From assembly GCA_964017145.1 (NCBI GenBank), contig OZ024840.1, positions 4,526,001 to 4,590,000 of the forward strand: 64,000 bases of DNA. Direction: 5' to 3'. The notes below the pieces were generated by a model. It made no database searches and was not told the DNA's origin. It saw nothing but the letters and a program-made list of their open reading frames with translations. Below are positions 37,944 to 55,417 of the stretch, piece by piece (position 1 is the stretch's first letter; each line of letters starts with the position of its first letter). This stretch comes from Agrocybe praecox. Its lineage: Eukaryota > Basidiomycota > Agaricomycetes > Agaricales > Agrocybaceae. The translations under genes were made by a program, and so were the position numbers.

Positions 37944-38504
37944 CATCCTACTTATCGCCGTTCTATGTTTGAAGCTATCGATGTACTTGCCCGCTATTTA
38001 TGATTATCCGTCTAATTTCATCCTCTGACTGGAAGTGCAAGTTAGCTCTTCTCACGGTATAGGTGAGTCCATAGTCCAAAATGAGTCATTTGAAGAAACC
38101 GTGTGCCTATTTGGGTAGTAAATATAGACTACTCGCACTATGACCCGCAGGGTCATTGAGAAGCACGGAGGCTGCTCTCTATGATCCCTGTCATTGCGTA
38201 TGCTTTTCCTGATGTGGGTGTATTTATGATTTTAGGCTTCTAGACCTGCGAATATGTGCGTCGACAGAGACTCGGAACAATTACATGCAAATGCTTCGGA
38301 CGTGTTATCATCATCATGGCGATCCTTTGACTGATCTTCTTGTCATATGAATGGTTTCTCGGAACGTAGGCAGAAATTTACAGCTCAGCAGTTAGTGATT
38401 AGCGGGTATAAGATCTGTGCTTGATGAACCAATTTTGAAATCCCTTTATCCCCCACTTCTCTAATTCGCCTACCAACGGAACCCTTCGTCTTATAGAATT
38501 ATAG
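37944..38504. other. Intergenic
   Basis: No supported feature. Probable promoter region of the small host gene interrupted by the transposon. Confidence 0.45.
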
Positions 38505-38683
38505 ATGATTGAAGAATATACCGATCAAGATATAAATACGAGCATAAATTTCCTCGATATTATACGTACTGGGATCTCGCCAGAAGCTATCGGGCCCAGG
38601 GATGCGAATACTTCAACTTATCATGCCTCTTTGTTGGAACTTGATCGATTACAGATTGCTCTCCAGGACGCTACGACAATCGC
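38505..38683 (+). pseudogene. 5' part of host gene split by the transposon
   Basis: The ATG at 38505 opens a frame (MIEEYTDQDINTS...) that reads to DATTIA exactly at the target-site duplication and then enters the transposon, where it stops after one more residue. The same frame resumes at 54280-54286 with TTIARESPQLG if the element and one 7-bp copy are ignored. The family is not recognised. The gene is interrupted in this haplotype, so it is non-functional unless the element excises. Confidence 0.75.
38677..38683. repeat. Left target-site duplication CAATCGC
   Basis: CAATCGC directly abuts the left end CAGGTAGG of the element. The same heptamer follows the right end at 54280-54286, and the host reading frame continues across a single copy. 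Confidence 0.85.
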
Positions 38684-39754
38684 CAGGTAGGGCAGCTACA
38701 CTGTACTGTATGGTACTGTTGAATGGGTACATACAGTGTACTGTATGATACTAGCTGAGTGGGCCCATTGGGCTCCTCCAGCAATGTATTACCATATTGA
38801 GCAGGTGCCTACGGGAGGCGGGGGTAGGTAGCGGGGGGATATCGTGCTGGGGTAGGGTGCCCGGGTGGGGTATCGGGTAGGGTAATAGGTTGGCGGGTCT
38901 GCAATATGCGCTTGGGTGGGGTATCAGGTAGGGTACTGGGTTGGGGGTCCACAGGATGCGCTCGGGGATACTGGGCGGGGATCAGCAGGATGCGCTCGGG
39001 GGTACTGGTTTGGGATCCGGAGGATGCGCTCGGTTGGGTATGGGTGAGCAGTGGATATTCATGTATGCAGTTCGGGTGGGCTATTTGGTAGGGTATTCGG
39101 ATGGGGTCTGCAGGGTACGATCGGGTGCCATATTGGAATAGCGGGTCTACAGGATCCGCTAGGGTTTGGGATCGCAGATCCCGCTCATGCGGCAGTTGAG
39201 ATTGATGGGGCTGCAGAATACGCCTGGGTTGGGTATTGGATTGGTAGGTCTGCTGGGTAGTGAATTGGCGAGTCTGCAGCTCCAGTGGGGTATTGGATTG
39301 GGATCTGCAGGATGCACCCAGGTGCCAAATTATTGGATTGGCAAATCGGCAGGATGTTCCCTGGCGGGTATTGGATGGGCATTGGTGTAGCGGGTGTGCG
39401 AGGGATTGGGAGGTCTAGAATGGGTCTCGGTGTGATAATGCAGTTGTCTATATAGTACCTGTCAGTAGACGGAAAGGATCGAGTGAAAGCACCCACATTA
39501 CAATCCAATAATCGGATATGAACTCCCGCTCGGATGCCAGCTGGCCATTAAGGACCTGCTCAAATCACTTGCATTAAAGTCCGATGATTGAATGAACACC
39601 CGCTTGGATGCCAATAGAGATCTGCTAAATTCACACATTGAATTCCTAATTAGATGAATGCCCGCTCGGATGCCAGCTAGCTATTAAGGATCCGCTTAAA
39701 TCATCCACATTGAATTTCAGTGATTGCATACCGATTCCCACTGTGATTCCCGCT
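38684..39754 (+). repeat. Left terminal inverted repeat, 1,071 bp
   Basis: Matches 53209-54279 in inverse orientation without a length change. Only the outermost 8 bp (CAGGTAGG versus CACATAGC) and a few bases at the inner end differ by eye. The outer part (38830-39420) is G-rich with repeats of units around GGATGCGCTCGGG and GGGTA(C/T)TGGGTTGGG. The inner part (39480-39754) is built of about four diverged 70-80-bp units around CGGATGCCAGCTGGC-ATTAAGGA. Confidence 0.92.
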
Positions 39755-39962
39755 GGCTATTAAGGATCGCTAATAAAATGATACCAACTCTTGTAACTTC
39801 ACTCTTTTTACCTATACACACAACAGGGAACAATGACACCAGGAATATATATATATTAAAATAAAACAAATTATGCGACGATTGTATATGACATGACGAA
39901 ATAAAAAAAGTGACGACCGTATATTACTTGACAAAAAAACAAAAAAAGCAACCTCCCGAAAT

Positions 39963-42130
39963 CTAGATAAAAAAATCGTCAGACTGTGGTTCCTCTCTGT
40001 CAAGATTATCAAACATTTCAACATCGACAATAGCTGCAAAGTAATCCGCGTCCCGCACACGTAGGTTGTCGGGTGGCATTGGGATAGTGACTCGGCGAAT
40101 GGGAGTTTCAGTGGATGAGGAGGAGGCGATATCGCTGGAATTGTCTGATAGGGTCTCATCCCCGTCTGCCGGGATCTCATCACTGACAATTTTGCGGATT
40201 GAGGATGGTGGGCTTGTTGCGGGAACAGGAGCAGGTGATGAGGAGGTTGCATGACTATCAGCAGTCCACCAAGCCTCAGGATTGCGAATGGTTGGCGGGG
40301 AGATGGGAGCGGATGATGGTGATAGAACTCGTGTATGTAGTACCATGTGCCTTGCCAACCATTTACTGTCTGGATCTGCATGTGTTAAGGGAGCGGCACT
40401 AGGAGAGCCTTGAATGTCAGCCAGCCCTCTGGACTCCTGTTCAGGGGCAGAGGACTTGCGATGTCGAGATGCCCATTTGTCACCAGGATCCGCTGCGGCA
40501 TTAAAAGCAGGTTGAGACGTGGGAGCGGATACTTGTCCTATAGCCAGCGTGAGGACTTTGCTCCCTCCAGCTGCGGGGGCTGTTTGCTTTCGCCTCTTCA
40601 AAGAAATCCACTTCTCATCGAGGTCGGCACTTGTGCCCAGTGGAGCGTTGGAATCTGCTGCAGCTGGATATGTGGTTTGAGCCACAGGGGATGGTTCTCG
40701 AGTGGGCGCTGACGATGTCAACTTGCGCTTTCTACCAAACCATGTGCTATCAAGGGCGGTATTGGCAGGCTGCGAGCTTGCGCCGTCCAATGGTCCTTGT
40801 GTTGTGGTTCCCAATGATCCTAATTGCTTTCCTTGACGTTTTTCAAGCCATTTGCTATCTGGGTCATTGACTGAAGATGGGGCAGCGCGAGTTGCGATTG
40901 GCGGGACCTTAATTTCTCGACGTCTTTCAAGCCATTTGCTGTCTGGGTCGGAGACTGAAGATGGGGCAGCGGGAGTTGTGGTTAGCGGGATCTTAATTTC
41001 TTCCAGCTGCCCGGGCCCCGCTCGGCCAGGTAATCCAGACGATCCTCCTCTCTTTCCTCTGCATTTCTCAAGCCACTTGTTGTCCAGGTCGGAGACTGTG
41101 GACCGGGGAGCGAGAGGTGAAGCTAGCGCCTCTACTAGCGGGTCTGTTTCTGCTCGGATAGATGACTCCCGGCTGGCAACGGCATCCTCGCAAAATTTTC
41201 GCCATTCTGCATCAGGAACCACAGGATCTGTCATTAGGTTATCTTGCAGAGTATGAAGTGCACGCATGCGCTGCTGAGCCAGTGACCCATGGGCGGTCAA
41301 TGTTGTCATAGAGTCTGACGCAAAGGTTGATACCCGCCGTAATTCCTCAATGCAATCCCGCGCCAGTGATTGATTTGCATCGCACGATGCACAAGACGGA
41401 TCAATTGGTCTTGGCACAGCGCGCAAGATGTTGGGTCGGGGGGAAAGCAAGCCGGGAAGAAATTTCGTCAGAACGGGAGCGGAAGATGGAGAGGAAGCGG
41501 CAGAAGGGGGGGCGGGACCTGAAGCACTTGCGGCAGAGGATGAAGTGGGAGTTGGAGTTGGAATGCTGTGGGACATGAATGTGAACTCGTGAGTGTCCAT
41601 ACAAATATCCCGGTTTTCCCTGTTCATAGCGGCGATGTACGGGTTGGCAGGACATGTGTCGCTTTCCCACCATGCGTTATGATATTTGTCCGCAAGTGAA
41701 GCGGGATGACTCAGCGGCAAATCCTTGGTCACGTACTCGGCCATGTCGTCGTCAATATCCAACGAGAGCTGGGAAGGTTTTGCGAGCCCTATTGTTGAAT
41801 ACAACGCAAGTAGAATCGTGGGAAGGTGCAGCTTGTAACCGAGTGCTGCTGCGATTCCAACACTAGAAAGAGAATATTCCTATAAATACATCAGCCACAT
41901 GGGCCAAAAAAAAAGATTTGATATTGGCCACTCACAATTTCCTTTTGCAGAAGCCGTTGTTTCCAACCAGAAATTTTCCGGTCTTTCTCAGGCAGAATAT
42001 AGCGGAGGGCCATCGTAAAGCGGGAGGCGTCATAATAGAGGCGATGTTGTATAACAGTGGACAAGGGATTTCCATTGCGACCTTTGCCAAATGCCAAGTC
42101 GTAGTCAGAGGGTATGGGTTTTCCGGGCAT
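39963..42130 (-). CDS. KDZ accessory protein with D-x-K-W repeats
   Basis: Two exons (41936-42130 and 39963-41879), about 703 residues; function unknown. The N-terminus, MPGKPIPSDYDLAFGKGRNG, leads into a folded-looking region of about 180 residues (LYYDASRFTMALRYIL, ADKYHNAWWESD). A Pro/Ser/Ala-rich linker follows, then CASCDANQSLARDC. After that come seven diverged units centred on D-x-D-x-K-W-L-x-x-R/K-R: DLDNKWLEKCRGK, DPDSKWLERRRE, DPDSKWLEKRQGK, LDSTWFGRKRK, DLDEKWISLKRRK, DPGDKWASRHRK, DPDSKWLARH. They are spaced 30-50 residues apart in low-complexity sequence. The tail is acidic. The gene lies directly downstream of the transposase on the same strand. A multivalent DNA- or protein-binding role is inference only. 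Confidence 0.75.
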
Positions 42131-42246
42131 AGTGACAATGTGGGGGGGAAGAAAAAGTTGATGTGCGATCAATAAGTTCAGCTATTTTTGTTAGAAGGCC
42201 AAACAAGAATATATTATTACATAAGAACATATTTATATCAACATTG

Positions 42247-45200
42247 TCACATGGGGACTCTAATATAATTATCATTTTGATTCAAAAATAATGTGTCCGC
42301 GCGAACTGCAAGATCCCGCCACTGAGCGCACTGGCGAGAAGCAAATGCAGCGGGTCCCGCTGAAATATGCGGTAACATTTGTACCTCCCTCCATTGATTC
42401 CTTTTATGTAGAAAGAATGCAACTGTCCATTGCATTTCATTGTCCACGAGCAATTCTTCCTCCCTCCATCTCTGATATATTGCGCGACCTCTCAACCAGT
42501 GAACGCGTTTGACTGAAAAATAAGAGCATTATAATGAGACGATAGTTAATGACTTACATTCAAGCATTACAGTTGGGTCAGCGGGTGGGACAAAATTGGG
42601 ATTATCGAGATCCGGAGCAATTCGTGTACGAACAGTATGCCAGATCCACGAGAGCTGGATCCTGGAAGACCCTGGTTTATTATAATCAAGTATAGCGGTA
42701 CTAGACTTCGTGTGTTCCCGCAGCAGAAGCTGGTACCTAGCCATGAGGTTAGGTCCCGCACCCAAGCGGATCATCCGACTCCGCACACGGTTGTACACAC
42801 GCCCATGGAATACAATCTGCTTGTTCATAGCTTCAATCGCAGCGCGGGAGCGGGTCTTGATATCTTTGCTGGTTGCGGGTCTTATGAGATCGGAGAAGTG
42901 GAATGACTTGTCTGCAATAAGGTCCCGTATATGTGTCAGATGCTTTTCCGCTTGTGCCACGCGGAACTCCAATTCATCTTGAATGTACAAACCTCCAGTA
43001 TTTCCGTTGGAAGGTAAACAGAGTCGCACTTTCTCCAGCGGCGGCGGGCCTTCTGCATTATACACGTCGGGTGCGGGGTACTGGGTGTCTGGATTAGGGC
43101 CCGAGTTTTGCACGGCAGTGGTTGAAACATCTCCAGGATATATTAAAGCCTCCCAATCAATGTCATCCCCTTCAAAAGCAATATCAGCATTGCTATCAGG
43201 CGTAACTGCAACTCCCGCTTCATTCACAAGGCGTGAGAGCTGATCCAGCAAAGGTCGCAAAGAGTCCCGCTTTTCGTCTATTTTCTTTGCTTCCGCAGGG
43301 TCATGGTGACGACCTAGCCTGCCAAGGCGATCAATGACCTCCAGTCTGAATATGGGATATTCAATTTTAAACGCCGGCAAAGCGGAGAGTTGACATACTG
43401 AATTTCCTCCACAAAAAATGCAAATTCCAACCATGCTTTGACCGGGGTACACCCGTCGTCTGGTTCCAAACCAGCGGAGGATTGAGAGTTCCCGCCACGA
43501 CCCGATCTATTGCGCGTCGCTATCTTGGGAATGTAAATATCCATAGCGGCAATGCTATCCATTCGTTCCTGTTCTGCGCGCTCAATTGCACTGGTCCAGG
43601 CAGCAACCAATTCATTTCCAAATGTACTGCAGAGATTTAAGAAATATTCTTTGTAATGAGCATGTTTCAACTGAGCATTTTGTTTGCGGGAACACAAGTA
43701 GCGGGCCATGCTGAGCGCCTTTTTGTGATTAGAGTCGCACGCATGATCGTCGAGGACTTCCGCTCGATGGGCTAGTGTTGCGGTCCGCACGGATGGTGAT
43801 ATCATATTATGAATGAACCAAAGGGATTCTAAAATTTCCCCACTTGTGATCGCTGCGCCAGGGATGAATGAAGGCGCAAATCGGAAGAAACACTCGTCCT
43901 TGTGGCCGTGCACATGAAACATTCCAATGGCCTTGTCGACAACTAAGCCCGGCGGGAGCTTGCTACCTATTCGTTCCTTTAAATGAACCCAGTACTGACA
44001 TGCAATGTCATAGAGGATGATTAACCCTTGGTCAGGGTGTAAGCCAATACCCTCAATAGACTTCAGCAGCGCAAAGTCTATGTTTTTCTGTTGTTCACCC
44101 TTGAAAAGATCCACAGACCCGCCTGGTGCAAAGCATCCATGGCGGGAGCATGCGACTCCCACTCGCCCAGTCACATCACAGTCTTTGGAAGGTTGTTGCG
44201 CCATCTTGATGACGTGAAAAAGATTTTCGCAAGGGGCTTTCTGCAGGAAAATCAGTAAAATTTTGATATGCCATCAATGACCTACCGTTGGGCGTTCTGC
44301 GGCAGTTTTGAGAAAATTTGTGTAATCTGCACCGTTGGGACTGATTCCCCCGCCATCAATGAGCCATACATCATCTCCCGCTTTCTTTGCTCGAACATGA
44401 TCTGCTTTGAAGTTGCCGTCAGCGGCTAATTGGATGCGATATAGGAAGCGGTCTGTGCGATCACGCCAGTCTGCAGGAATGTTTTTTCCTTCTTGCGGGC
44501 ATGCAACACAAAAATTGGCAAATTCTGAATTGCGGGCCTTCAATGGGTCCTTGCCATTATGGCCATATCCCGCCCATTTCAATTTCTTCATCCACCTCCA
44601 CAAGCGGGTCATTCGACGGAATTCGTGAACTACGTTGACAACGCCAGCGGGATCTAAGGAACAGGTAATTCGGCGCAAATAGTGATAAAATTGATGAGCG
44701 GAGGCTTTGAGTTCCAGGTTACAAAGCCGGTATTGGTCCAAGATATCAGCAGTGAACAAGGTACGAATTCTCTTGAAACTGGATGGCAACAAGTTGGCCG
44801 CGACCAGTTCTATCGGGAGAAGGTCAATTCCCTCACACGTGCAGGACACCAGGCCAATATGGTGAATGCCTGTTGTGTGTAAAATTCGAACATAATCACT
44901 TTCCGGCAGCGCTGAAGGCGAGTCGACAGGAAACTGCATGCGTGAAAATGGTACTCGGTCCCCGATCATGCCAGGCTCTGCGCTACCTCTGCTCTCTGGT
45001 CGGGTCTCTGGTCTGTTGGGCGTCCTGTACTGCTGCGGGTGGTTCAAGTAAGGAGGCATGTGAGGAAGTTCGCCTGCCTCATAGGCGGCAGTTTTGTCTC
45101 CTGCCGCCTCTACGTCGCAGGAGCCACCATACAGTTCCTCGATATATCTGTCAATCCTAGCATCCTCCTCTAGTTCTTCAGCGGCAGTCACCTGCGGCAT

Positions 45201-46118
45201 ATCTTCATTGGCGACATCTGTGAAATCAAATGCCCATGGTGCGGGACCGGCAGGCTGGCGGGAGTCAGCGAATGAGTTATTATCGGCGGATCTGCTATTC
45301 TGCTGTTCCAGGAATCGAGTTTCCATGTCATCTATCCGCATTTCTGCCTGTTCAAGATCTTGAATCTTGTTCTCCAGATGAGAGCAAACCTTGTTTCCCA
45401 TATGCGGTATCAAAACATAGCAGCCAACTTCCCACAAGTGACTTTCGTCATAATGGGATCCGATCCATTTTTCCACACGGTGCAGAGGGTTCTCCTTATG
45501 CGCATGCCGCATGCATTTGCGGCAGAGAGCGGGACCCGCTAAACAGTCCCGACATCGCCAAATAGCAGTACCCGCAGACTGACAATGTTTACAGTCTAAG
45601 TCGATGGGACATGCTTCCCGGCTAAGGTGCGCGAGCAATATTGGATTAATCTTTTCGACAAATTGTCGGATGTATTCGCTCTGAGTTCTCTGAAAGAAAG
45701 ATTAAGCTGGCGTTATAAATACACTAGCCAAGTATCATACGCGTTTGGCTTTTGTCCTGCACGGCTGGACTTGGGGTGATGGCTTGCCGGGGAAGTCCGC
45801 GACGGGCGCTTCATTTTGTTCTGGGTGTCGTAAAAAGTAATCTTCATCGTAGATGAGTGTGTCGGCCGCCTGATCGCTTGAGGTTGTCTGTGTGCGATGT
45901 TCCAATTGATCAACACCTTCAAGTACCACCTTGCGACGTTTAAATGAGATGCCGCCGGAGTCCCCATGAACAACATCTGTGTTATATGTTACAACATCGT
46001 CCAACCGATCAACAGCGAGGGATGTTTTTTTGCTGCGTCCCATGAGTGAAAGAGAGTAAGAAACGATATCATTTGTCTGTTGTTCAGTAAATAAGGTTTT
46101 TGCGCGTGGTAGACTCAT
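42247..46118 (-). CDS. KDZ transposase with CxC2-like cysteine cluster
   Basis: A multi-exon gene of roughly 1,000-1,080 residues. Exon 1 (46118-45741) begins MSLPRAKTLF; a second Met (MGRSKK, 46043) is also possible. Exon 2 holds the zinc-binding cluster CKHCQSAG...CRDC...CRKCMRHAH...HRVEKW, a linker, and the block DGGGISPNGADYTNFL. Exon 3 has the KDZ blocks C-S-R-H-G (VGVACSRHGCFAPG), LIILYDIACQYW, FHVHGHKDECFFRF and GEILESLWFIHN. These supply the aspartates and glutamate of an RNase H-like DDE core. Further exons hold helical regions and end near 42247 after VHWLRGRAIYQRWREEELLV. One splice (around 44240-44285) is ambiguous by a few bases. No in-frame lesion was seen, so the enzyme is probably intact. 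Confidence 0.88.
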
Positions 46119-46172
46119 GTTATACACATGTTATACACATGCTATACACATGCTATGCACATGGTATACCCA
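46114..46172. repeat. Five 11-bp tandem units in the divergent promoter
   Basis: CATGTTATACA, repeated with small changes (CATGCTATACA, CATGCTATGCA, CATGGTATACC), lies between the transposase and the forward accessory gene. The first CAT is the complement of the transposase ATG. It could bind the transposase or a regulator; that is inferred from position only. Confidence 0.8.
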
Positions 46173-46382
46173 GTGGCTTCGCCATTGACATACAATCGTA
46201 TAGCTGCTATATATAAAATACCAATATAGTAGCATTACATTGATCAAATTACAAAACATGTTTCTGTATATATGCGGCACGATTTACACATGTCAGACGC
46301 ATTAAATACAATATGATTATATCAGGTGTGCTAAATATTGTGCATAAACTATTTACCCCCACTGAAACTTGTGTTTGTTCTC

Positions 46383-48953
46383 ATGGCCAGGCATACAGAC
46401 CGCCGTTCAAAAAACTACAATTCAAAAGAACGGGCCTTGTTGAGGCAGTTTAAATCCGGTTACCTGAAGTGTCAGAGTCCACCAGAGCGAAAGGAATACG
46501 TTTCCAATATCATCTGGACATCTTTGTGCGAGTATTGGCGGCAGAAGACGGGCGACCCAGTGATAGAGAATGCGGCTGCCAAAGCAATGGTTTGCGCTGT
46601 CACTCTTAAAGTTGCCATTGACGTCCATCCTTTTTTTCCAGAAACTTGCTTTCTTCATTCGCAACAATTGGCGCCTACCAAAATCTATATACGGTCCAGG
46701 TCTTCGAATTGTTGTCAAGAAATCGAGCATTGTCTGGGAAATCCACAGGCTCAGAGTGGAAGAAGAGATTGCGCGTTTAATTGAAGAGTCCATTGCCTCA
46801 GGCGGGTCTTCTAGATGGCTTCCCAAGTATGCCACAGCGGTGCGAACTGTTTGGAAGTCCCTTTCCACCGAGGAGCGGGGCCATATCGAGCGGGAGGTTC
46901 AACGGCGGGAGCAGGAGGGTTTATCAACAGAGGCAAAAACGAAGTCAGTTTGGCAAATTCCTGTCATAGCGGGAACTAATCCCATGGCACAGAAATCGAA
47001 ATCGCCATATGAAGGCGCGACTTGAAGAGGGAAGTTCCCGCAACTTTCTTGAGATGGACATCCTCTCTATAACTTTTGTTATATTCCGCAACCCTCTCGG
47101 AGAATTGGAAGTTGATATGTAAGTGTTCAATGGACGCTCTTCGAATGTGCTGAAAACTAAATATTTTCCCTCTAAGACATGATCGTATTGGGGATTTACT
47201 TCATCTGGGGCCATCATTTTCACTAAGTGCCCAATACCCGCAACAGGTCAAAGATTTCAAGCAAGTATTAGCGTCATATGTCAAGAAGCTCCGGGACCAA
47301 GTGAGTAATTTGGCACCAAGGGACGCAACAGTAGTACCCCAAGGGATGGAAAGCAACCTGTTGATGACGAGCGGGACAATCTTACCACCAGTTCTCCCTA
47401 GCGGGACCAAAGCAGTACCCGCCGATATGTTTGAAATTAGCGACAATCAATACCCAAAATTGTTGCCAAAATTTAAGGACCAAAATATGACCAAGGATCA
47501 ACTGGAAATGCTTATGCGGCTTTATTTGGGGCAACATTATTGTATTCCTTTCCCCCTAACTGTTTTTCTTTTTTCTGACTGTTTGGTAGACATAGCGACA
47601 GGGATGAATAAACGGTATCATGTCCCGTGGTCGGTCATGTATGAAAACGATCGGGAGTTTGTCGATCGGGAGTATGTCCCGCATGGGTTTCGGTTCAACC
47701 ACCCGCGTCTCCTTCAAAAAGAGGAAATTCTGACATTTTTAAATCATGTCTACAACCGTCAACAAACTTATGATTCACTAGAAAATGTGTTCAGATTCAG
47801 AAGGGTTTTGGATGGAAGAGCAAAGGAGAGCCGAGTCATTAATGCTAGTTATCCTACAGAACATGGGACATCAAACCCCGCCACCCAGGCAACCCCCCAA
47901 GCTGCTGCAAGCAAAAAGAAAAAACCTCCACCATATCAAACAGTGATCGACTTGAGGGCGACTGCAGCTGCAGCTCCAGTCCTTCCAAATCAGCAAACAC
48001 CCGCATCGATCAGCATAACATCCGCACCAAATGAACCAATACCCACAACAATCAGCATAACATCTGCAACAAATGAACCAATACCCGCATCAATCAGCAT
48101 AACATCCGCACCAAATGAACCAATACCCGCATCAATCAGCATAACATCCGCACCAAATGAACCAATACCCGCATCAATCAGCATAACATCCGCACCAAAT
48201 GAACCAATACCCGCATCAATCAGCATAACATCCGCACCAAATGAACCAATACCCACATCAATCAGCATAACATCCGCACCAAATGAACAAATACCCGCAT
48301 CGAGCAGCACAACATCCGCACCAAATGACCAAACACCCGCACCAGTTATCATAACACCCACACCAAATGACCAAACACCCGCACCAATTACCATAACACC
48401 TGCACCAAATAAGCAAACTCCCACATCCATTAGCACAACCCCCGCTTCAAATGAAGGAATGCCCGCAGCTGTTGGCTTAACCCTCTGTCCACTTGATACA
48501 CCGACAGTATTGAATTCGATATGCGGAGGTCAAGAGCCCGCAGGACCTGCTCAGAGGAAAAGACCACAGCCCCGCAAACGGGGAGCGGCAAAGACAGCAA
48601 CAAGCTTATACCATCAGACAATATATGGGGATGATGCGTCTGATCCACTGCCAAATTTGGGCAACATGGAAAGGCAAGGGATTGGCATTTCAGCCGCTGC
48701 AACAGCGTCTGTCAATCCACCCGGTGAAGCGGGCCTCGAAAACTTGGATTCACCATCTCATGGACACCCGCTCACCTTGCCAACTTCCACCGTTCGTCGT
48801 ACACGCTCAATGACTTCTGCCGCAACTCAAGAGCAAAGCAGCACAATGACAACACGTGCAAGATCTGCCTCATCTAAAAGACCCGCTGACAAACATGCAA
48901 TCCAAGGAGCCACACAACGTGTGACAGGCAGGGGCAGGGGCAAGAAAAGGTAG
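46383..48953 (+). CDS. KDZ accessory protein with a 14-residue minisatellite
   Basis: Starts MARHTDRRSKNYNSKERALL at 46383, divergent from the transposase with about 265 bp between. Introns are apparent near 46612-46650 (acceptor in the TTTTTTTCCAG tract), 46972-47030, 47118-47177 and 47541-47589, all short GT-AG. The first 380 or so residues look folded: WRLPKSIYGPGLRIV, LEMDILSITFVIFR, VPWSVMYENDREFVDREYVP. The next 155 residues are eleven 14-residue repeats of the type ISITSAPNEPIPAS. The tail is basic (KRPQPRKRGAAK; ending GRGRGKKR), suggesting nuclear or nucleic-acid association. The family is not recognised. Its divergent pairing with the transposase suggests co-expression. Confidence 0.72.
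47999..48460 (+). repeat. Coding minisatellite, 11 units of 42 bp
   Basis: Eleven tandem 42-bp units in frame. Four consecutive central copies are identical at the protein level and the outer ones diverge progressively. Most units contain CCCGCA, so the element-wide CCCGC motif is regularly phased here. Confidence 0.92.
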
Positions 48954-49142
48954 AAAAAAAGAAGTTTTAGTGGAACCTTAAATCTTGTAGCTTTAACACT
49001 CATTGCTTTCCAAATTGTTCCCAAAATATTTGTATTATATATTTTTTAAAGTAAAATTTTAAAAGTCCGAGCGGCAGCTGGACAGCAGGAGACAACAAGA
49101 TTCAAGATATATGTACAAAAAAAAAAAGACCCGCCAACGCAT

Positions 49143-52100
49143 TCAGGGTGAAGGTTCGAAGTCAAGTTCTTCCTCAGGCGAAGAGTGCGCAGGAGCGGGA
49201 GGAGCAGGTGAAGCACGGGCGGGGACATTGGAACCACCAGAGGCCAAACAATGTGAGCGCTGAGGCGGGTCATTGGAGATCGACCGACTACGTGAACGGC
49301 GGTGTACAACGGGAACATCAAGGGTGAGTGGAGGTGGGATGGTGTTATCCACGCCCTCGGTGGCTATGGCAGCCTGACTGGGGGATGGAGGTGGAGGCGG
49401 AGGTGGTGTTTGCTGAGTGACGGGGGGCGTGTGCTGAGTAATGGGGGGCGTGTGAGGGCGGGCTTCTGCTGGCAGGACAGGCGGGGTCAGTGTAGGTGGT
49501 ATGATATTCACCTTTGGGTCACAATTGTCGAACGAAACTGTCGCCATATCGACGTCTTCTTCACTAGAATATGGGGAGCCATTGTAAAATGCTTCCGCAT
49601 CGGCACCCCCGTCCAGCAATTCCGCATGCGAGGTGACAGTAGATGGGGGGACCCGCTGAGGGGAACTAGGGTCCCGCAGCGTGATGTCGTCGAAAGCGGG
49701 GGTGGCAGTAGTGGTAATGGGAGCTGGCGTATCAATGGCAGCGACAGATGGAGTCTCCGCAGAGTTGATGACGCTGGTGATGTTGGCGTTGCTGGCGGGA
49801 GGTGTGGAGGTTGTGCTGGTGCTGGGGGAATGAGTGGCGATGGAGGGGTCGTCAGTAGACAGATTGTTCTGCTGGCGGGGGGTTGGAGTGCTCTCCAGGT
49901 TGACTGCCCGCTCTTCGACGTCCATCGCTGAGGGGTTGTCCAGGTCGTTGGTGACCACCGCATCAGCGTCAGTATCCATGTCGCAATCAAACAGCGGGCA
50001 GTCCCCCCGTGCATAGTCCTCCAGCGTGCGGACTCTTTCTGAGAGATTTTCGATCCGCGAGAACTCCTCCAGAACATAGACCCGGCCTGGAATATCCTCC
50101 ACCCGTGCTTGTTCCTCCATAACGCGGACTCTCTCCGAGAGAGACTCGCACAATGCCTCCAGTCGGGTAATCACCCGCGACTGATCCTTGACAGTGATTT
50201 CCAACGTGCGCATCTTCTGCTGATATATCTTCGCTTTGCCCTCGTATTTCTCCGCGAGTTCCTGGGCTTTGGCCACCTCTTGTTCATGGTTGAGTTGCCG
50301 ACGCTCCAGCACGTTGTACTTGACCGAATGGGCTGCTGATTCCCCATCCACCGTTGCAAAGTTCGCCTTGAGGACGCCATGATTCTTCTCTAACCTCGCG
50401 CACCAGCTGTCGTACCGTTCGCGGATGTCCTTGTTCGTGACACCCCATTGGCGGAAGTCCGCTTCCCGCTCACGCTGGATTGCCTCTGTGAAATCCTCAA
50501 CGTCCATCAAGCGGGTATCGATGGTGTCGATTTGGCTTTCCAGCCCCGCGATTTGCTCACACATCTCCTCTGGGTCGGTCGAATCGAAGGAGGTGGGAGA
50601 CGCCCGATTCAAATTGGAGCGAGTTGGGTGGGGGATATTGAGCGGGAGTCGCTTCCCTAATATGACATGAGTAATAGGGATGTAAAAAATCGGATCCTAC
50701 TTACTTGGCTCAATTGAAAAATTGAAACCCCCCGCTGACGGGGGTTGGGTAATGTCCGCCTCGACGGAGTTATGCTTGCCTGGGACAAAATGAACTAAAG
50801 CAAAGTTAGATGAGAGGTATGTTGAATGTTAGATGACTTACCCTTGCGTGATGTCGTCGCTTGTTGAGGGCGGGGATCTGCAGGGGGAGGTCCTGCTGGG
50901 ACAGCAGGGGGTCCAGCATTCTTTGCGGGCCCCGCAATGATCCGTGGTGGGCCTTTTTGAACGGGGGCAGCTGTCTCGTTTGACAGAGACAAGGGACCAG
51001 CGAGGGCCTTTGGAACTTCCGTCGATCCCTTGATTGGCCGACGGACAATCACCGGGACCATCCCAAGGCGACGGTTCTTCGGAGGACCCACCTTGAATAA
51101 ATCGAGTTTTCGTGGATCCCCGTCTTTTTCCACAAACTCTGCGCTTTTGGGGGCGGGGACTTTGGCTTTTTTGCGCGGGGGTTTGTCGATGTTGGCACCT
51201 GCATCGCTCTCGGCGGGTGGCTGATATTCGCCATCGGGATCGTCTTCCACAAACTCTGAGCTTTTGGGTGGGGGGCGGACCTTGGCTTTTTTGCGCGGGG
51301 GTTTGTCGATATTGCCACCTTCATCGCTCTCGGCAGGTGGCTGGTATTCGCCATCGGGATCGTCTTCAGCGTCGACTTCCTCTTTTCCTTTTCCCGATGG
51401 TTCGTTCACGTCGGGATTTGGGTCTGGTTCTGTACTGGGTTCGTCGCGGAATTCACATTTGCGGTTCAGGTTCGAGCACGCTAGACATGATGGCGTCTTC
51501 CCTTTGAGCCTCAAGCCAACCGTGCGCTCCTGACATTTGAAGCCCTTCTCCGTACACTTCACACATTTTGGGATGTAGAGAAACCCGGTGGGATGGTGCT
51601 TTCGCCTGGGAGGGGGAGCGGGTTTGGAAGGACCCGCCTTGGAATCGGCAGATTGGTCTTTGCCTCCCTCATCCTTCTCCCGCTTGCGCTTGGATGATTC
51701 TGACGGAGGAGCGGGTCTCTGGATGGGAGCGGATGGTTTAGTGGAATTGGTTGGTTTAACGGGAGCGGGAGGTATATCGCGAGCAGGGGGTTCCGGTGAC
51801 TCGGAGACTCTAAGCCCCCCCAAAGCTTGAGTGAGGGGCCCACTGGTTGAATTTTGGCGTTTACGTGCGGCAGTTGTACTCCCACTGGCGGGTCCTTGGC
51901 TGCTTGAGGTGGATGCCGCTCGATTCAAGCTGTCTTCGGGATGCACCTGATGAAATTCGTTCATTCGGAGGAGCATCGATGAACGGTAGGTGTCGTCAAT
52001 GGCGATATCAGCATCGCAGGCGTCGAGGTAATTTTGGAGGAAGGGGAATAAAAAAACATTGGGGCGGAGGACGGCTGGATCCATAGTGCCGGCTTGGCGG

Positions 52101-52298
52101 GTCTCCATAATGCTACACTAATTGAATATAAATACCTTTTTTTTTTTTTCAACATAAACAAAACGGACTTACAACCATTGAGTCCATGTTGTCGACGACG
52201 GCATTGATATCACCACCATCGCGCAATACTTTGGTGACGTGGCCATTGCATTCCTTGACTGCAGCCAGGAACGTTTGCGGGTTTGTGTAAGGTGACAT
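49143..52298 (-). CDS. KDZ accessory protein: Zn2Cys6 cluster plus coiled coil
   Basis: Four exons join into one frame of roughly 1,000 residues. The first starts MSPYTNPQTFLAAVKECNGH at 52298. The second (to about 50838) has a folded N-terminal region, a Pro/Ser-rich part and a fungal-type binuclear zinc cluster, CVKCTEKGFKC...CLACSNLNRKC (C-x2-C-x6-C-x15-C-x2-C-x6-C, about 51450-51565). Two near-identical acidic/basic units DPDGEYQPPAESD...NIDKPPRKKAKV follow. A small exon (about 50705-50785) links to the last one (to 49143), which is a long coiled coil (about 180 residues, with E-R-V-R-x-[LM]-E heptads) and a Pro/Thr-rich acidic tail. The Zn2Cys6 cluster is central rather than N-terminal, and no fungal transcription-factor middle domain is seen. 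Possibly the element's DNA-binding co-factor; inference. Confidence 0.72.
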
Positions 52299-52629
52299 TG
52301 AAAGTGAGGCGGGAGCGGGAGCAAAAAGCTTTAAAAAGACGAGATCGGGAGGGGGTTATTTGTGTGCTGTTGCAGAGGGAGGAAAGAATGCAAGAACGGG
52401 GCTTGTTGAACTTGGACAAAACATCTATAAATAAGATGAAACACGACCAACCTCGTGCTACGGCTCCAAATATAGACATACACGTGCGCGCTAACACTGC
52501 CTCCGTTTACTCCCGCAAAATTTGTTCAGCGGGTCATGTTTTCCTTCGCATTCTAATAACTCCCAATAACGTCCCTCAAGGAAAGCCATTACAACCTCCT
52601 ATACGTGAACACTTGTCGATCAAACGAGT

Positions 52630-52998
52630 ATGCCCGGTGGCTCTTCCACATTGAACGGACCTATATCGGACCCAACAAAAGATGCTGCGTCAATGACAAC
52701 CCCGTGTATGGGATATATATTAACGGACGAGGAATTTACACCGAACCCGCAAGATGCAGTGTCAGAATGCCGCCCGATCTTGCGACTGGCGCTTCCGCAC
52801 GAGTCCGATGGGTGTACTAATTTAAGACGAACTGAGCCTGAGGTGACGTATAATTCCATTGTGTGGATGTGTCAACCAAAGCTCAATCTATTTAGAACAC
52901 CTCCGCCCCGCTTGAAGTTCAACTTGTGTCGAAAATCAAATTTATTCAATCATGCCTGGGAATCTCTTATGGGGAAGCATTGTACAGACTATATTTGA
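52630..52998 (+). CDS. Possible small ORF, 122 residues
   Basis: The ATG at 52630 opens MPGGSSTLNGPISDPTKD... ending GKHCTDYI. It lies between the zinc-cluster gene (opposite strand) and the right inverted repeat. No motif and no splice context. It may be noise, but it is the only candidate gene in this 900-bp stretch, which otherwise holds only GCGGG-rich DNA. Confidence 0.3.
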   Translation: MPGGSSTLNGPISDPTKDAASMTTPCMGYILTDEEFTPNPQDAVSECRPILRLALPHESDGCTNLRRTEPEVTYNSIVWMCQPKLNLFRTPPPRLKFNLCRKSNLFNHAWESLMGKHCTDYI

Positions 52999-53208
52999 TG
53001 GAGAGACAAAAAATAAAACATGGAGCAGATGCAGTTAGAGTTTTTCAAAATATTGCCCTTCGTTGCCAGGCTGCCGTCGTCGATTTGGAGAGCAGGATAT
53101 GAAGGCTGTATTGTATATTTAATAGTTCCAAATTTCAGTTGCAAAGGAATTTAAGTGGCGGAACCTGAATGGCGGGACATTTAAAAATAGTTGCGGCAGT
53201 TCATGCGC

Positions 53209-54279
53209 AGCGGGTATCACAGCGGGAATCGGTATGCAATCACTGAAATTCAATGTGGATGATTTAAGCGGATCCTTAATAGCTAGCTGGCATCCGAGCG
53301 GGCATTCATCTAATTAGGAATTCAATGTGTGAATTTAGCAGATCTCTATTGGCATCCAAGCGGGTGTTCATTCAATCATCGGACTTTAATGCAAGTGATT
53401 TGAGCAGGTCCTTAATGGCCAGCTGGCATCCGAGCGGGAGTTCATATCCGATTATTGGATTGTAATGTGGGTGCTTTCACTCGATCCTTTCCGTCTACTG
53501 ACAGGTACTATATAGACAACTGCATTATCACACCGAGACCCATTCTAGACCTCCCAATCCCTCGCACACCCGCTACACCAATGCCCATCCAATACCCGCC
53601 AGGGAACATCCTGCCGATTTGCCAATCCAATAATTTGGCACCTGGGTGCATCCTGCAGATCCCAATCCAATACCCCACTGGAGCTGCAGACTCGCCAATT
53701 CACTACCCAGCAGACCTACCAATCCAATACCCAACCCAGGCGTATTCTGCAGCCCCATCAATCTCAACTGCCGCATGAGCGGGATCTGCGATCCCAAACC
53801 CTAGCGGATCCTGTAGACCCGCTATTCCAATATGGCACCCGATCGTACCCTGCAGACCCCATCCGAATACCCTACCAAATAGCCCACCCGAACTGCATAC
53901 ATGAATATCCACTGCTCACCCATACCCAACCGAGCGCATCCTCCGGATCCCAAACCAGTACCCCCGAGCGCATCCTGCTGATCCCCGCCCAGTATCCCCG
54001 AGCGCATCCTGTGGACCCCCAACCCAGTACCCTACCTGATACCCCACCCAAGCGCATATTGCAGACCCGCCAACCTATTACCCTACCCGATACCCCACCC
54101 GGGCACCCTACCCCAGCACGATATCCCCCCGCTACCTACCCCCGCCTCCCGTAGGCACCTGCTCAATATGGTAATACATTGCTGGAGGAGCCCAATGGGC
54201 CCACTCAGCTAGTATCATACAGTACACTGTATGTACCCATTCAACAGTACCATACAGTACAGTGTAGCTGCGCTATGTG
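53209..54279 (-). repeat. Right terminal inverted repeat, 1,071 bp
   Basis: Inverse copy of 38684-39754. Every ORF over 60 residues found in one arm is present unchanged in the other at the mirror position, so at least the 39-39.5 kb interval is identical in both. Ends ...GTAGCTGCGCTATGTG. Confidence 0.92.
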
Positions 54280-54286
54280 CAATCGC
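54280..54286. repeat. Right target-site duplication CAATCGC
   Basis: Second copy of the 7-bp sequence at 38677-38683, directly following the right end of the element. Confidence 0.85.
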
Positions 54287-54778
54287 ACGAGAAAGTCCTC
54301 AACTAGGAATTAGTGCAAGGCTTCGTGTCCCTGTAGTAGTAGGAGGTACAGAACATGAAAGACTTTGGAAAATTATTTCAACTCGGACAAAGGATACACC
54401 ATATAAGAATATGATCCAGGAAATTCTAGGCGAGAGTAAAGCAACAGTAAGCTTTCTTGTTCGTATGATGACGATTATTAATTCTTTGCGCCTCTAGGTA
54501 TTATTTTTCCGCGATGTCACCTTCGAACCGGATTTTCCTATTGAGAGGAATAAATACAATATCATTGACTCGTGTTAGTAGTCTTTTCTATCTACTCGTA
54601 TATTCCGAATGCTGGACTAATGATCGTCTTTTCAATCAGTTTACAAACAAGCCCAAAACTTTCACGAGTTATGCGCAAAGGCGTGTCTTTCGATTTGCGG
54701 GTTTCCTTACGACGACAGAAGTATGATTTTTTTCCGTTCAGTGCAAGAAGTTCTCCCAAACTTGGGGATCGAAAATGA
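54280..54778 (+). pseudogene. 3' part of host gene split by the transposon
   Basis: Continues the frame of 38505-38683 from the duplication: IARESPQLGISARLRVPVVV, EHERLWKIISTRTKDTPYKN, then a short intron (54447-54497) and VLFFRDVTFEPDFPIERN. The frame stops at 54578, or, if GTGTTAG...CAG (about 54571-54640) is an intron, continues to 54778. The product is about 130-200 residues and of unknown family. Without its 5' half this segment has no start codon of its own; the apparent ATG at 54231 belongs to the transposon arm. Confidence 0.65.
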
Positions 54779-55417
54779 TCCTTCTTGGACGCTCAGCAAC
54801 GTGCTGGTGATTCTTAAGCGTAAATCTTAACTATTCTTAAGGTAGGGAAGCAATAACGGATAATTTTACGGATGTAGTAGCTTTCCAGGTTGACTTTACT
54901 TGCATATCTGCCATAGAGTTGTGGAGAAATTTATGGACTTGTAGGCTGAGAGCCCGGTTGGTGCGTGAGCAACCCAACCCATGGTTAAAATTAGTATAGG
55001 AGATGACGTCAATGTCTCACATTCGAACTTGCAAGTTGCTCTATAGGAACACGCGGCCGCGTAAAGTCTTCAGCTAGATTATATGGACACCACGGCTAGC
55101 TTAAGTACTCAGTTTTCAGCGCTTATGCTCGAGGCGGGCGGGCGTCGGTTAAGTTTGAATTTGATGAACGACGCGTCAGTGCCAGTCAACTAGTCACATC
55201 AGACATGACGTGACTTTCGTGTTTTTGGCCAGATGTGACAGACGTCGCGGCTTGTTTTCGTCGCGGCCGACATTTTCTTTTCATTCTATCCGCCTTTCCA
55301 CTACATCTCTTTGGTGACTTTTGTTCAAGTACCAACACAATTCATTCAGCCTTTAACCATAAAGAATACAGTCTTGGAAAGGCTTTACACGTCTGGGTCA
55401 ACGTCTCATGAAAAAAA
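54779..55417. other. Intergenic, nothing recognised
   Basis: Presumed promoter region of the next gene. No repeat or ORF of note. Confidence 0.5.

Follow-up and report, generated by a model that had tools for sequence, protein, structure and literature searches.

KDZ transposons are known largely for their TET/JBP cargo, and a large KDZ element of the basidiomycete Agrocybe praecox raises the question of which other proteins can accompany such a transposase and what they might do for it. The element, which we call A, lies in a 64-kb window (positions 4,526,001 to 4,590,000 of the forward strand of contig OZ024840.1, assembly GCA_964017145.1), to which all coordinates given without a contig refer; B to K denote related copies in the same genome, and C1, C6, C12, etc., denote its contigs. 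A is a two-ended KDZ transposon of 15,596 bp (38684-54279), with the gene order P1 (minus strand), transposase (minus), P2 (plus), and P3 (minus) from its left end. A first-pass annotation, made from the sequence alone, had proposed that the three accessory genes form a conserved module working with the transposase. We find that the steady companion of this transposase clade is P2, encoded head-to-head with the transposase, and that P1 and P3 distinguish a subfamily that has these two additional proteins and repeat arms of about 1 kb.

The inverted arms of A are of equal length, 1068 nt each (38688-39755 and 53208-54275), or 1072 bp with the CA..TG ends included (38684-39755, plus strand, and 53208-54279, minus strand). 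They are 99.7% alike, with 5/1072 mismatches (positions 3, 4, 8, 1057, and 1065). A perfect 7-bp target site duplication (TSD), CAATCGC, flanks the element at 38677-38683 and 54280-54286; both the equal-length arms and the duplication reported at first pass are thus confirmed. A search with the arms gave copies B (C6:854118-884914), C (C9:1284060-1301595), D (C159:4021, left end only), E (C7:530707-545494), F (C7:3534735-3539327), and G (C1:204759-208121), plus single ends. CA..TG termini are found at both ends of A, B, C, E, and F, and one end of G is CG.. instead. The 7-bp TSD is perfect in B (TGCTCAT), E (AGGGTTC), and G (TTGCCTT) as well as in A, and matches at 6/7 positions in F; comparison of the flanks of copy C gave no TSD. 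Because the other copies have equal anatomy, a chance origin of this anatomy is excluded, and A is a real, recently active-looking element.

The transposase (span 42247-46118, minus strand) is intact after splicing, with 1225 amino acids encoded in five exons (46118-45741, 45689-44286, 44240-43399, 43345-42558, and 42512-42247, its final coordinate being counted by hand) separated by four GT-AG introns of 45 to 53 bp. Pfam matched the KDZ catalytic domain PF18758 over 217/217 positions (E 1e-39) and the cysteine cluster CxC2 PF18803 (E 2.6e-15), bearing out the first-pass identification of a KDZ transposase with a CxC2-like cluster. A search of the genome with transposase exon 3 gave 28 matches with 45 to 100% identity and one 40% fragment, the remainder having ≤36% identity. 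The clade was accordingly taken as 29 matches, including the fragments C10:809622 (40%, 111 amino acids) and C182:4-81 (77%, 26 amino acids). The genome is rich in KDZ sequences: its 59 Mb yielded at least 176 matches to KDZ, with separate pieces of a gene each counted.

The association between P2 and this clade was assessed with edge-to-edge distances for 27 P2 loci (31 matches merged to 26, plus one from a second P2 query) and 111 other KDZ places, the latter obtained from 150 of the 176 KDZ matches by merging the 124 outside the clade. A clade transposase lies within 5 kb of P2 at 23 of the 27 loci (22 without counting the 40% fragment), against a chance expectation of ∼0.1 to 0.2 of 27, given 29 clade matches, ∼11-kb windows, and 59 Mb. 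The two genes are head-to-head at 26 of the 27 loci, three of them at a distance of 18 to 42 kb; the remaining locus, on C339, is near the contig start, and there is no transposase on that contig. Among the matches listed, P2 was found within 5 kb at 0 of the 111 nonclade places, the nearest being C12:1573896, at 5.9 kb. Conversely, 6 of the 29 clade matches have no P2 within 6 kb. Among these six, D is truncated, the C182 match is at a contig edge, and a P2 lies head-to-head with C12:3216511 and C12:1586212 but at a greater distance; near the last two, C6:2972172 and the TET/JBP-linked C12:2717359, the P2 searches of the genome found none. We conclude that P2 is a core partner of the whole transposase clade; on account of its head-to-head position, it is a good candidate for the role of essential cofactor in a two-component system. 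Two similar P2 copies, at C12:3173893-3217317 and on contig C182, still face a clade transposase head-to-head across 42 and 29 kb, gaps that perhaps represent a large nested insertion.

The first-pass annotation had contrasted the element with carriers of TET/JBP genes. This holds for A itself, in which there is no match to the TET/JBP family PF12851, but a related member of its clade does have such a gene beside it: only 2.9 kb separates a clade transposase with 45% identity from the only TET/JBP match over the Pfam cutoff in the genome (C12:2717359-2718081 / C12:2720989-2721459).

What kind of protein is P2? The gene (plus strand; exons 46383-46589, 46642-46943, 46993-47118, and 47177-48953, with a further small intron possible in the last) encodes about 804 amino acids, comprising an HMG-like region in exon 2, a GTF2I-like core in exon 4, a stretch encoded by an 84-bp minisatellite, and a basic tail. 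The exon 2 region is present in 18 of 20 distant P2 loci examined, the other 2 having only the exon 3 region. It is predicted to form three long helices (122-138, 145-159, and 162-178; predicted local distance difference test score [pLDDT] about 71 to 92 in blocks). Its similarity to HMG boxes is weak, with a profile score of 18.4 versus ≤16.1 in 197 column shuffles, over 25 columns only and at a probability of 3.7%; the HMG family was absent among the matches listed from a Pfam search with exon 2. Iyer and colleagues are reported to have described, in 2014, a divergent HMG-domain protein of KDZ elements, which we take P2 probably to be. To our knowledge, the abstract of that work mentions neither a GTF2I-like core nor P1 or P3.

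The exon 4 core resembles the GTF2I repeat weakly, in tests that converge. Among 17 trimmed members of the exon 4 family, 8 matched the Pfam GTF2I repeat PF02946 (best E 0.024, under the gathering score), and each other Pfam family matched just one. Two GTF2I domains came out on top of a PDB profile search (E 0.028 and 0.092), and GTF2I domains took ranks 1 to 3 of 24 in Foldseek, without significance and with a poor predicted model. An hhalign comparison with GTF2I, chosen post hoc, scored 26.2 versus ≤17.7 in 200 column shuffles, over 37 columns and at a probability of 48 to 63%; the pattern VPY/W...LP.G..F+.P is common to both. Several results pull the other way. P2 of A is itself not among the 8 matching members, 7 full-length exon 4 sequences of the family had zero Pfam matches, a genome scan with PF02946 gave nothing, VIA-align found no match, and the predicted model of the core, as mentioned, is poor. 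The GTF2I (TFII-I) repeat is known mainly from vertebrates, and GTF2I and KDZ occur together in no paper of the open-access literature searched, outside which most subscription papers lie. A bolder reading, which we put forward tentatively and consider rather unlikely, is that P2 has a genuine GTF2I repeat beside its HMG-like region, that the domain is a fungal transposon-encoded DNA-binding module that animals may have acquired from KDZ elements, and that P2 forms with P1 and P3 a multiprotein transposition machine for long repeat arms. Were the resemblance true, KDZ elements would be a possible transposon source of a vertebrate transcription factor domain.

P1 (minus strand; exons 42130-41936 and 41879-39963) encodes 704 amino acids after splicing, with a conserved N-terminal region, 8 D-x-D-x-x-W-type motifs, and an acidic C terminus; the motif, more fully DPDxxWL, is retained across copies (8 in A and 7 in K). 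P3 (minus strand, span 49143-52298; exons ∼52298-52172, read by hand, ∼52117-50842, ∼50779-50705, and 50656-49143) encodes ∼1000 amino acids, with six invariant cysteines, a KK.KV motif resembling a nuclear localization signal, and a coiled coil. The cysteine spacing, C-x2-C-x6-C ... C-x2-C-x6-C, is Zn2Cys6-like, and all six residues are invariant in A, E, and K (30% identity), with the Pfam Zn2Cys6 family PF00172 falling below the gathering score on P3 (E 0.14 in A and 1.3 in K). The three accessory proteins described at first pass, with D-x-K-W repeats, with a minisatellite and basic tail, and with six cysteines and a coiled coil, are all present, but their extents needed revision: P1 gains a 5′ exon (42130-41936), P2 is larger, with exons from 46383, and P3 has at least three exons. 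Between A and K, protein identity is 34% for P1 and about 30 to 37% for P3 (30 to 39% for the two together). Within the genome, P1 and P3 are present in A to E (D without P3) and in K, and a piece of P1 is found at C12:1275477-1277629; outside the long-armed family, the search gave no clear copy of either. It did give one weak P1-like match at C2:105227-105472 (33% over 83 amino acids, E 8.8e-4), with no listed KDZ match adjoining.

A, B, E, and the divergent K, on C12, share all four genes in one order and orientation; K has 72% identity to A in the catalytic exon of the transposase, and its right arm ends near 226669, the left being reduced to 33 bp. Among the copies seen, only A and, in the portion read, K have every gene open. 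E aligns with A without stops in transposase exons 1 to 4 and in the long exons of P1 and P3, but its P2 has one stop in exon 3 and a second in a probable intron. In B, P2 exon 3 and P1 have one stop each, and about 15 kb, including another KDZ match, lies between its transposase and P1; C has one stop in each P3 part. The interior of C is inverted relative to its own ends, and its arms, at 1986 nt, reach into P1, as if they had recombined. D matches A from the left end through all 4.6 kb read and has a partial transposase exon; P2 and P3 searches gave no match in it. The further piece at C12:1275477-1277629, 98% identical, includes a portion of P1 together with the tail of the transposase. 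None of the four cargo searches, nor the search with the transposase, hit F or G, and their middles, as far as read, do not match A; on these grounds F and G look like nonautonomous derivatives, gene-free pairs of arms. None of the arm copies found encloses only a transposase, the cargo-free F and G having given no transposase match either, and within this genome the accessory proteins do not occur mainly away from KDZ transposases.

Comparison of A with E shows that all four genes are under constraint. The ratio of nonsynonymous to synonymous substitution rates (dN/dS) is 0.22 (0.18 to 0.27) for the transposase (1112 codons), 0.34 (0.25 to 0.44) for P1 (674 codons), and 0.17 (0.12 to 0.24) for P2 without the minisatellite (462 codons; 0.32 for whole P2, 699 codons). 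For P3, the point estimate, without an interval, is 0.44 (867 codons). An out-of-frame control, which covered the exons of the transposase, P1, and P2, gave 0.84 to 1.59. Silent sites are saturated or nearly so between A and K, and A, B, and C differ among themselves by few changes, with ratios of about 0.2 to 0.9 and wide intervals that decide little.

The identity of the two arms within an element is 99.7% in A, 99.6% in B, 99.9% in C, 94.4% in E, 97.7% in F, and 100% in G; between copies it is 97 to 99.4% for close copies, 89 to 90% for A and E, and 82 to 84%, over the outer 119 to 309 bp, between subfamilies. Because the arms of an element are closer to each other than to the same arm elsewhere, the comparison suggests that arms are homogenized within an element. 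A difference between the two ends, at positions 3 and 4, is retained despite this near-identity: the left arm, on the P1 side, has the end type CAGGTAGGG, shared by A, B, D, and E, and the right arm, on the P3 side, has the end type CACATAGCG, CACATAG being found on that side in A, B, and E. The outer ∼115 bp, conserved in the family, is the sole arm part common to A and to G, H, I, J, and K (79 to 86%), and the inner arms have internal repeats that differ between relatives. We read the outer ∼115 bp as a putative transposase site and the inner arm as a probable fast-changing array. Galileo-like long-repeat fold-back elements also have long, near-identical arms with internal repeats and variable length, as well as gene-free derivatives, but belong to a different transposase family.

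Taken together, we favor the view that A is a Kyakuja-type cut-and-paste KDZ transposon that probably encodes its own nuclear helper proteins, with P1 and P3 as transposition cofactors specific to the subfamily and P2, most likely, as a DNA-binding cofactor of transposition. The transposase and P2 would be made together from a putative shared divergent promoter in the 264-bp gap between their start codons (46119-46382); P2 would bind and bend the ends through its HMG-like and GTF2I-like regions, and the transposase would then pair the P2-bent ends. P1, with its DPDxxWL array of perhaps docking sites, and P3 might act on the long repeat-rich arms, contributing to synapsis or to maintaining expression of the element. 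The first-pass proposal of one conserved module survives in part: the shared order in A, B, E, and K, the constrained frames, and the lack of clear P1 or P3 copies elsewhere speak for it, but P2 belongs to the whole clade and P1 and P3 only to the long-armed subfamily.

The chief alternative, which we consider less probable and give limited weight, is that P1 and P3 are anti-silencing factors that bind the repeat-rich arms and sustain expression, thereby taking the part proposed for TET/JBP enzymes in other Kyakuja elements; VANC of the plant VANDAL elements offers a comparison. It would suit the absence of TET/JBP from A, set against its presence next to a transposase of the same clade, the Zn2Cys6-like and nuclear-signal-like motifs of P3, and the relative-specific arm arrays, which match the expectation for a binding array that coevolves with the fast-evolving P1 and P3. 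However, no enzymatic domain was seen in P1 or P3, and the same facts fit a role in synapsis. That the cargo consists of captured host genes hitchhiking on the element, of use to the host or to no one, in the manner of certain giant mobile elements, seems very improbable: although giant algal KDZ elements with extra genes exist, from the parts of the report available to us (PMC12477816), the cargo here was found in the genome only with this transposase, save for the one weak P1 match, in a fixed order and under constraint approaching that on the transposase. Still less credible is that P1 and P3 are decaying, functionless passenger frames. Low-complexity stretches and the stops in P1 of B and in both P3 parts of C might suggest decay, but both genes are open in A, E, and, as far as read, K, at 30 to 39% protein identity, and their dN/dS values are 0.34 for P1 and 0.44 for P3.

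Among described elements, Kyakuja transposons have CA..TG ends and 7-bp TSDs, and Zisupton and Dileera have 8-bp TSDs (Kojima 2025, PMC12730594, here and below from the portions available). A shares with Agaricomycete Kyakuja the KDZ transposase, the CA..TG ends, and the 7-bp TSDs, but the two Laccaria families, Kyakuja-1_LB and -2_LB, lack terminal inverted repeats (TIRs) and carry TET/JBP, whereas A has ∼1-kb arms and P1, P2, and P3. The terms "HMG," "other protein," and "additional gene" are absent from the available main text of that paper. Because of its 1068-nt arms, we term A Kyakuja-type but place it outside those two families; it is a new Kyakuja-type KDZ variant, not a new class, and the absence of TIRs may not define Kyakuja. 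The Cryptococcus elements KDZ1, KDZ2, and KDZ3, as far as the accessible part of their description goes (PMC12810828), resemble A in having a KDZ transposase with a cysteine cluster and TIRs, and are mobile and about 9 to 11 kb long. They differ in their TIRs of 139 to 241 bp, TSDs of 4 to 8 bp, and CxC1 rather than CxC2 cluster, and no cargo like P1, P2, or P3 is described there. The giant KDZ elements of Ectocarpus and Chlamydomonas have accessory genes and nested insertions but are algal, and the accessible text leaves their accessory genes undescribed (PMC12477816).

Elsewhere in the window, six large reading frames at 4938-32102 appear by eye to be one family, presumably of F-box/leucine-rich proteins. 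When the flanks of A, 38084-38683 and 54287-54886, are joined, a 129-amino-acid open frame with no Pfam match spans the insertion point, and the insertion of A may have split a gene.

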